From: Clostridiales bacterium
Lineage (GTDB): Bacteria > Bacillota > Clostridia > Saccharofermentanales > Saccharofermentanaceae
Assembly: GCA_017551625.1 (NCBI GenBank)
Contig: JAFZLF010000009.1
Span: 124,001-188,000 of the forward strand
Direction of reading: 5' to 3'
Length of the DNA stretch: 64,000 nucleotides
Positions 32,532 through 57,390 of this stretch are shown one piece after another. The notes under the pieces are model-generated. The model was not told the origin of the DNA, made no database searches, and saw nothing but the letters and a program-made list of their open reading frames with translations. Numbering within the stretch: position 1 is the stretch's first letter; each line of letters starts with the position of its first letter. Position numbers and translations under genes: made by a program.

Positions 32532-33542
32532 ATGGGTTTAGGACTGGATATCGGTATTGATCTGGGCACAAGCAGTGTCCTTATATATGTTCGCGGCAAG
32601 GGCGTCGTTCTGAAGGAGCCGTCCGTCGTTGCGGTAAATACGAAGACGGGAACCGTTCTGGCGGTTGGTGAGAGCGCGAGCCTGATGCTCGGCAGAACAC
32701 CGGGTGTCGTCGAGGCGATCCGTCCTCTTCGCGATGGTGTTATTTCCGACTTTAAGGTTACCGAGGTCATGCTGAAGGCGTTCATCGGCCGTGTATGCCA
32801 GGGCATCCGTGCGACATACTTCCGCCCGACGATCGTTGTTTGCGTTCCGTCTGTGATCACTCCGGTTGAGCAGAAGGCCGTTGAGGATGCCTGCCGTCAT
32901 GCCGGCGCGAAGGATGTATTCCTGATCCGTGAGCCGATCGCAGCTGCGATCGGTGCCGGTATCGATATTACGAAGGCATGTGGTTCCATGATTGTAGATA
33001 TCGGAGGCGGTACCACGGATATCGCGGTTATCTCCCTCTGCGAGCCTGTAGTTGACTTCTCCCTGAAGGTCGCAGGCGACAAGTTTGACGAAGCAATCGT
33101 TAAGCACGTCCGTCGTAAGCACAACGTCCTCATCGGTGAGAAGACGGCGGAAGAACTGAAGATCAACATCGGATGCGCGTATCCGAGAGAAGAAGAAATG
33201 ACGATGGATGTCCGTGGACGTAACCTCATCACCGGTCTTCCGGCGACGGTTACTGTTTCTTCCACTGAGATGCTCGAAGCTCTTGAAGAACCGGTAGCGG
33301 CGATCTTCGATGCAGTACACTCCGTACTAGAGAGAACTCCGCCGGAACTGATGGCCGATATCTCCCAGCGTGGTATCGTTATGACCGGTGGCGGCGCGCT
33401 CCTTTATGGTCTCGACCGCATGCTTGCCACTAAGATCGGTATCGACGTATGCGTAGCTGAAGACACCGTTTCCTGTGTCGCGATCGGAACAGGAAAAGCA
33501 CTCGGCATGATGGACAAGTTCGCCGCGCTGGGCGATACCTGA
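32532..33542 (+). CDS. mreB: Rod-shape actin homologue MreB/Mbl
   Basis: 336 residues. Bacterial actin that guides lateral wall synthesis. Actin-fold phosphate loops are DIGIDLGTSSVLIYVRGKGVVL and VDIGGGTTDIAVISL; the adenosine-site motif is GIVMTGGGALLYGLDRML. ATG 32532 follows TGAGG; the frame continues 18 codons upstream through the leader hairpins and is not likely used. It stands alone without mreC and mreD, as for Bacillus mbl, so the paralogue identity (MreB, Mbl or MreBH) is open. The repeated hairpin motif follows its stop. Confidence 0.93.
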   Translation: MGLGLDIGIDLGTSSVLIYVRGKGVVLKEPSVVAVNTKTGTVLAVGESASLMLGRTPGVVEAIRPLRDGVISDFKVTEVMLKAFIGRVCQGIRATYFRPTIVVCVPSVITPVEQKAVEDACRHAGAKDVFLIREPIAAAIGAGIDITKACGSMIVDIGGGTTDIAVISLCEPVVDFSLKVAGDKFDEAIVKHVRRKHNVLIGEKTAEELKINIGCAYPREEEMTMDVRGRNLITGLPATVTVSSTEMLEALEEPVAAIFDAVHSVLERTPPELMADISQRGIVMTGGGALLYGLDRMLATKIGIDVCVAEDTVSCVAIGTGKALGMMDKFAALGDT

Positions 33543-33577
33543 TCGGTCTTACCTTCAGACAATTCAATCGCTGTAAT

Positions 33578-33634
33578 AAATCAACGTCGCTGGTCCTCGA
33601 TACTTCGTGTCTGCGGAATCGCGACTTTTGATTT
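33578..33634 (+). other. Repeated structured hairpin motif, copy 1
   Basis: Outer stem AAATCAA/TTGATTT, then GTCGC/GCGAC, then unpaired TGG, TCC paired to GGA, an internal loop TC opposite TGC, and an apical stem GATAC/GTGTC with loop TTC. The TGG-TCC-TC and TGC-GGA signatures are identical to copy 2 at 44327, while the apical and outer stems differ in sequence but not in form. It starts 36 bases after the mreB stop and is followed by TTA, so it may also end the mreB transcript. Confidence 0.65.
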
Positions 33635-33706
33635 TTACGGCGATTTGTATTTGTCTTGTTCCGATCAGGTATCGTCAAGTGCTGGTTTGTATGACGTTTT
33701 CGTTAG
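33635..33706. other. Intergenic stretch before the rho promoter
   Basis: AT-rich, no open frame with a ribosome site. The gap between mreB and rho is 385 bases in all; it holds hairpin copy 1, this spacer, the rho promoter and the rho leader. I see no further feature here. Confidence 0.5.
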
Positions 33707-44080: not shown

Positions 44081-44311
44081 ATGCTACCAATCATCAACAT
44101 GGAAGAAACAGGAAGTAACATCGTTCGGCTCCGTGAGGATGCCGGGCTCTCCGTCAGAGATCTTCAGGATATATTCGGATTTGCCACGCCGCAGGCGATC
44201 TACAAGTGGCAGAGAGGAGTGAGCATGCCGACCATCGACAATCTCCTGGTCCTCTCACTCACATTCCGTGTACCGATCGAAAGGATCCTGGTGGTCGATC
44301 AGGTTTCTTAA
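44081..44311 (+). CDS. Small XRE-family helix-turn-helix regulator
   Basis: 76 residues. A Cro/C1-type helix-turn-helix covers IVRLREDAGLSVRDLQDIFGF, then the recognition helix ATPQAIYKWQRGVSMPTIDNLLVLS and a helix LTFRVPIERILV. This short form is common in Clostridia, and some relatives respond to peptides or control small neighbours. A GGGGGAAT site precedes the ATG. It is followed after 15 bases by copy 2 of the hairpin motif. Its promoter is not clear; it could be reached by read-through of the preceding terminator. Confidence 0.85.
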   Translation: MLPIINMEETGSNIVRLREDAGLSVRDLQDIFGFATPQAIYKWQRGVSMPTIDNLLVLSLTFRVPIERILVVDQVS

Positions 44312-44326
44312 TAAAATGATAATTTA

Positions 44327-44399
44327 CGAAAGAGAGAAGCTTTCTCGTGCTGGTCCTCGTCTATTGGACTGCGGAGGCACGGAAAGCTTCTCTCTTTCG
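44327..44399 (+). other. Repeated structured hairpin motif, copy 2 (long)
   Basis: An 18-bp perfect outer stem (44327-44344 with 44382-44399), one bulged T, CGTGC/GCACG, then TGG unpaired, TCC/GGA, TC opposite TGC, and an apical hairpin GTC-TATTG-GAC. The core TGG-TCC-TC and TGC-GGA are identical to copy 1 at 33578. No T-run follows the outer stem, so it is not a standard terminator. It lies between the XRE stop and the uvrB promoter. Confidence 0.7.
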
Positions 44400-44478
44400 C
44401 AAGCATTCCGATTAAGAATGAGCTGATCTTAGGGGGGACGGAAAAGCATTTTTGTTTAGTGATTAACCGGATCTGATA

Positions 44479-57129: not shown

Positions 57130-57390
57130 ATAACATAAGAAAAGCATTGACGGAAAAGAGTAGTCCGAAGAAAGTCATCCAGAGAGAGTGGCATATCGCT
57201 GGAAGTCACTTCTGAGGATCCCGGACGAAAACCATTCCCGAGCTGTAGTGCTGAAAGACTTAAGTAAGCGTTACCGTATGTCTGCGTTAAAGGCTAGGAT
57301 TTGTTGGAATCTGAAGTGAAAAGTTAAGGTGGAACCGTGCTATACAGCACCCTTAAAGATCGAGACCGGTCTTTTGGGTGCTTTTCTTAT
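57130..57390 (+). promoter_or_regulatory. T-box riboswitch of thrS
   Basis: tRNA-sensing leader. Stem I landmarks are AGAGAGTGG and CGCTGGAAG. A specifier candidate ACC (57231-57233, Thr) is followed by A, as usual. The T-box sequence TTAAGGTGGAACCGTG lies at 57325-57340; its TGGA bulge would pair with a tRNA ending in TCCA. An antiterminator (AAGG..GTGC/GCAC..CCTT) competes with the terminator AGCACCC..AAAGA/TCTTT..GGGTGCT plus TTTTCTT (57345-57386). Uncharged tRNA-Thr should allow thrS expression. The region fills most of the 507-base gap before thrS. Confidence 0.93.

Follow-up and report, generated by a model that had tools for sequence, protein, structure and literature searches.

What kind of element keeps the bases of an internal loop and replaces the stems around it? 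The question is raised by a long hairpin at 44327-44399 of a 64,000-nt stretch (hereafter the window) of a Clostridiales bacterium genome (assembly GCA_017551625.1, contig JAFZLF010000009.1, positions 124,001 to 188,000, forward strand). We found that this hairpin belongs to a previously undescribed family of dispersed DNA palindromes with a fixed, non-palindromic core, and that the arms around the core are specific to each site and change together. The element is probably an extragenic palindrome of two layers, a conserved core and arms re-copied by DNA template switching (quasipalindrome correction), with the copies in this bacterium's own genus likely used as terminators.

A dispersed hairpin family with a fixed core

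Folding of positions 44310-44415 gave 18 pairs, one bulge and 6 more pairs before the internal loop; the first-pass annotation, made from the sequence of the window, had the same form with five pairs after the bulge. The RNA fold reached -46.9 kcal/mol (z -6.5, none of 200 shuffles equally good) and the DNA fold a z of -8.7. A second hairpin near 33590 had been given too short an extent: it continues into the end of the upstream gene and as a whole spans 33525-33682 (RNA fold -76.2 kcal/mol, z -8.8). The cores at 44350-44375 and 33590-33617 are identical except for a variable small hairpin (CTGGTCCTCG-(small hairpin)-CTGCGGA), and the stem sequences are unrelated, so that the early observation of fixed loop bases within differing stems holds. 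The central parts of the two copies are as follows.

44350..44375, + strand: conserved core of the copy at 44327-44399, type B (CTGG-TCC-TC-G..C-TGC-GGA-GG), with small variable apical hairpin; exact match to the 24-copy pattern described below; covariance model R1 match at 44329-44397 (44.8 bits, E 1e-8)
44327..44349, + strand: inner left arm of the same copy, A-rich and fully paired in the fold save one bulge
44376..44399, + strand: inner right arm of the same copy, complementary to the left arm in the fold
33590..33617, + strand: conserved core of the second copy, type A (..GGA-ATCG); covariance model R1 match at 33569-33639 (53.5 bits, E 1e-10)
33557..33589, + strand: inner left arm of the second copy, from the fold
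33618..33657, + strand: inner right arm of the second copy, from fold and sequence, including the T-rich stretch TTTTGATTTTTA

The core of ~26-45 nt reads CTGG-TCC-T-C-G(small hairpin)C-T-G-C-GGA, followed by ATCG in type A or GG in type B; on the 5' side type B has CTGG, or CTG in some copies. Between the arms, its outer part consists of a C-G pair and then a 3x3 loop TGG/ATC (type A) or a T.G pair with a bulged G(G) (type B). The inner part consists of TCC/GGA, a T/C mismatch, C-G, a bulged T and the small hairpin, whose stem and loop are variable. In type A copies CGTCG precedes CTGG, located within the hairpin and not at its foot. The core sequence is maintained though it is not self-complementary, and the same core stands between wholly different arms. 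Its conservation is strong but not absolute, because copies retrieved via their flanks, mostly with exact cores, include some variant and some decayed ones. At the uvrB site of one genome (L475 in G005) a hairpin of the same form has a different core (CCGTTTCCC .. GGAGGGAGG), which may represent a second core family.

We counted 24 occurrences of the pattern CTGGTCCTC-N(5-30)-TGCGGA in this genome and 0 of its reversed control; a covariance model built from 40 copies found 47, with two strong matches in the window, and the expectation of a repeated element was thus borne out. The pattern is carried by 22 of 23 genomes of the genus, and by the model each carrier other than this genome (21 of the 22) has 14-47 copies. 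Those genus members that bear names were assembled from rumen metagenomes, e.g., Mageeibacillus sp. UBA1193 and UBA3781 and Clostridiales bacterium RGIG8127. An extended pattern was found in 0/165 other genomes of the order and 0/390 sampled genomes of the class. Strict restriction to the genus was abandoned once copies turned up in Coriobacteriaceae, where the exact core with long arms is present in 13/67 genomes (control 0). Beyond the genus the distribution comes from a partial sample: among the matches listed, exact cores with long arms also occur singly in a few further genomes outside the genus and Coriobacteriaceae, and the viral and genome-wide pattern scans gave 196 matches including genus repeats, most of them armless and chance-like; 26 had arms, and ~20 of these look real. 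Two Thermotogae assemblies (L108, L145) have the exact core with moderate arms, and ~150 bp of surrounding sequence is common to both. In Coriobacteriaceae, two copies (L497, L501) lie directly 3' of a small signal recognition particle (SRP) RNA gene and have arms of ~36 nearly perfect pairs.

Artefacts of metagenome assembly, i.e., fold-back chimeras, are hardly credible as the source of the hairpins. Metagenome-assembled genomes (MAGs) do make up most of the genus, but the same core is present at orthologous sites in independently assembled genomes, sister-genome copies are 94-99% identical, and the core is consistent in another phylum.

The absence of a known RNA form, noted at first sight, was confirmed with Rfam 15: scanning the whole window at gathering thresholds, and both copies plus nine other loci by E-value, assigned the hairpins to no family above its gathering threshold; sub-threshold microRNA hairpin models were the only matches. 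A literature search for the core string returned only unrelated, primer-like occurrences. We also considered attC sites, T-boxes, SRP RNA and the known self-cleaving ribozymes; no match supports any of them.

Dispersed extragenic hairpins in tens of copies, with opposite-facing pairs, are also typical of repetitive extragenic palindromic (REP) elements with GTAG or CGTC tags (PMC3733652). We weighed a palindromic repeat of this type, borne by a REP-associated tyrosine transposase (RAYT) and moved as single-stranded DNA by the Y1 enzyme. The 14-47 hairpins per genome, the close opposite-facing pairs and a tandem array agree with it. However, REP stems are 5-13 bp long and conserved in sequence with the tag at the foot (PMC3733652); here the arms are much longer, site-specific and unrelated between copies, the conserved part is an internal loop, the foot is not constant and there is no GTAG tag. 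The Y1 transposase family PF01797 is present in just 4/23 genus genomes and absent from this one, which rules it out as carrier of the core and leaves this explanation very improbable. The tandem array (L259, G007:C29:18347-18570) comprises three copies spaced exactly 100 nt apart, with a rearranged half core between.

Arms that change together

The arms are not inherited as a sequence family. The median pairing score was 14.8 for the left and right arms of the same copy and 1.1 for arms of different copies. The proportion of copies above the 99th percentile of mismatched arms was 86% at 0-30 nt from the core, 37% at 30-60 nt, 18% at 45-90 nt and 7% at 60-110 nt. Outer arms can extend to 50-110 nt; complementarity as a whole is at background level beyond 90 nt (90-150 nt). 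Across 96 orthologous pairs, the inner arms showed 78 compensatory double changes vs 17 both-changed positions expected by independence, and the covariation that the annotation had proposed to look for is thus present.

Covarying stems and the invariant bases of the asymmetric loop would fit a conserved RNA, in which the core would serve, in 3' untranslated regions, as the binding motif for a protein or small molecule and the stems would be under RNA base-pair selection. A selected RNA helix should, however, give more G.U than A.C single changes. G.U was no commoner than A.C among single arm changes in the same orthologous pairs (28 vs 28), among single mismatches within copies (27 vs 31) or among single changes in Coriobacteriaceae (6 vs 14). 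We regard a conserved RNA as unlikely; further evidence on it is given below.

The arms are also replaced in blocks. At one orthologous site, genome G014 has left arm A and right arm B, G012 has A on both sides and G017 has B on both sides. Three orthologous Coriobacteriaceae copies (L499/L504/L511) have flanks 79-86% identical and the same core, and their arms are largely different yet each self-complementary. Homogenisation of arms without G.U intermediates (78 compensatory doubles vs 17 expected both-changed positions; G.U 28 = A.C 28) is the behavior of inverted repeats shaped by template switching.

In-place inversions and mirrored gene ends

An element of ~95 nt is inverted in place between genomes G006 and G011 (L243/L267), with flanks 97-98% identical, and a second such case is L398/L419. 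Such a flip of the central part among closely related genomes is likewise a mark of template-switch-type inverted repeats. In addition, the outer arms of several copies mirror the end of the neighboring gene, as in both copies of the window.

44297..44312, + strand: end of the upstream XRE-like open reading frame (GATCAGGTTTCTTAAT; stop codon 44309-44311), original of the outer mirror, from the sequence; protein end conserved in 22 genomes
44411..44428, + strand: outer right arm of the copy at 44327-44399, inverted XRE gene end (ATTAAGAATGAGCTGATC); in 4/5 genomes with an element here and 0 non-carriers by inspection
33525..33546, + strand: end of the MreB-like (mbl) gene with TGA stop (33540-33542), original of the outer mirror; last 138 codons nearly invariant in 22 genomes
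33661..33682, + strand: outer right arm of the second copy, inverted mbl gene end, pairing with 33525-33546

Between mbl and rho, all three carriers (G000, G005, G015) have the inverted mbl end, including the stop codon, ~45-65 nt beyond the core. The mirror score was 14 in G000 and G015 (0/200 shuffles) and 10 in G005 (3/200); none was significant in the 15 non-carriers with a readable gene end (best 9, 11/200), four genomes with an unreadable end being left out of the comparison. Of the five genomes with the element after the XRE stop, four also have the mirrored gene end; in non-carriers this place is empty or holds an ordinary terminator. Conservation of these gene ends in non-carriers identifies the gene as the original and the arm as its copy at both the mbl and XRE sites. 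Mirrored gene ends are also found in carriers at the uvrB site, where in G012 and G007 (L473, L477) a partial second copy of the right half of the core lies just downstream of the full element. In the gap between convergent cyclophilin and glycosyltransferase genes of G004, both unrelated genes end in the identical ACGAAGTAATTCATC; the cyclophilin of G017 has VTVAR at its rewritten end instead of VTVTK. Nematomorph mitochondrial coding palindromes resemble these sites in their long near-perfect inverted repeats with both arms reaching coding sequence, and differ in being organelle DNA and in having no reported shared core (PMC6649704).

A conserved RNA would not need mirrored coding ends, and elements inverted in place between sister species also speak against it. 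Because of these inversions, the mirrored ends and the lack of G.U preference, a DNA mutation process is a better explanation than RNA selection. The annotation had proposed a conserved RNA or single-stranded DNA recognised by its loop; an RNA kept by ordinary pair selection does not agree with these data, and a DNA-level process, for which its mention of single-stranded DNA left room, does.

Genomic position, mechanism and significance

Of the 93 copies for which the genes are clear, 48 are flanked by convergent genes; the others comprise 26 co-directional, 11 antisense and 8 divergent copies. In the genus the core lies a median of 37 nt downstream of a co-directional stop, in agreement with the early remark that both copies sit just after a gene. 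Otherwise unrelated copies have in common an A-tract 11-18 nt before the core and a T-tract 15-22 nt after it, and TTTT at +13..+32 was found in 77% of own-genus copies vs 19% in the flanking control. Since most hairpins of the genus sit just past a stop codon and have a U-tract at a constant distance, own-genus copies probably act, judging from sequence, as intrinsic and often bidirectional terminators. They resemble these also in the GC-rich inner stem, and differ in the sequence-fixed apical core and in arms that may enter the coding region. The sequence of hairpin and U-tract downstream of a gene is seen in the genus but not in Coriobacteriaceae, where T-tracts follow only 5% of copies and some copies lie between divergent genes; termination is therefore not the common denominator. 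For a conserved RNA, the location just past stop codons is a further point in favor; against it are the unrelated neighboring genes and the Coriobacteriaceae copies, which are GC-rich, without U-tracts and in several cases between divergent genes. Elsewhere in the window, a T-box leader, an element of a well-known kind, occupies 57138-57357 (112.8 bits).

The position after genes, the A- and T-tracts at fixed distance and the ordinary terminators of non-carriers at the same sites would also be expected if the core inserted into the loop of a pre-existing terminator or palindrome, the arms being the host's older stems and no copying being involved. We consider this quite improbable: gene ends 50-70 nt from the core are mirrored in carriers only, orthologous arms are replaced in blocks yet still complementary, and many Coriobacteriaceae copies lie away from terminators.

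At inverted repeats, template switching by DNA polymerase is known to make the arms homogeneous and to invert spacers (PMC8604942), and it creates and maintains RNA hairpins with one-step compensatory change (PMC8794818). Template switching accounts for the arms and their missing G.U bias, as well as for the mirrored gene ends and the inversions. The likeness to template-switch mutation (PMC8604942, PMC8794818, PMC7202029) extends to arm homogenisation, multi-base one-step compensatory change, central inversion and reach into coding sequence; unlike the individual, unrelated inverted repeats described there, the present sites share one conserved core. In the course we propose, the hairpin would let the polymerase switch template during DNA synthesis, and one arm would serve as template for renewing the other, starting at the core and proceeding outward, usually over 20-30 nt and sometimes over 60-110 nt into the neighboring coding end. 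This would homogenise the arms and could overwrite gene C-termini or flip the element, and use as a terminator in the genus would help to maintain the hairpin. Selection, or a sequence-specific factor binding the RNA or the hairpin DNA, may maintain the core; alternatively, the core may itself be the moving part.

Several points weigh against this reading. Template switching alone leaves the same core at dozens of sites in two phyla unexplained, and no close pair captured the birth (insertion) of a copy. Core conservation is inflated, as most copies were gathered by exact-pattern search and those retrieved by model or flank show variants and decay. The control of ordinary terminators numbered only 9-12, a sample too small to establish that the genus's other hairpins behave differently, and an old inverted duplication decaying through point mutations would explain part of the outer-arm pattern equally well. 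The orientation bias (26 co-directional vs 11 antisense, p 0.02), also expected of a conserved RNA, could reflect an RNA-level role. Finally, the genus is represented mainly by MAGs, although sister assemblies are in agreement. We tentatively entertain a self-spreading DNA hairpin, in which the core, via a dedicated host or mobile factor, would make the replication machinery fold back and plant a mirror of the adjacent gene end around itself, and would thereby move between sites and phyla although it has no own transposase.

Covariation in stems commonly counts as proof that an RNA is functional, and here a DNA mutation process explains it better. The family, with its core common to two phyla, is a natural test set for separating RNA selection from a DNA mutation process. 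It also includes unrelated neighboring genes whose last codons and stop became mutual copies via a hairpin.
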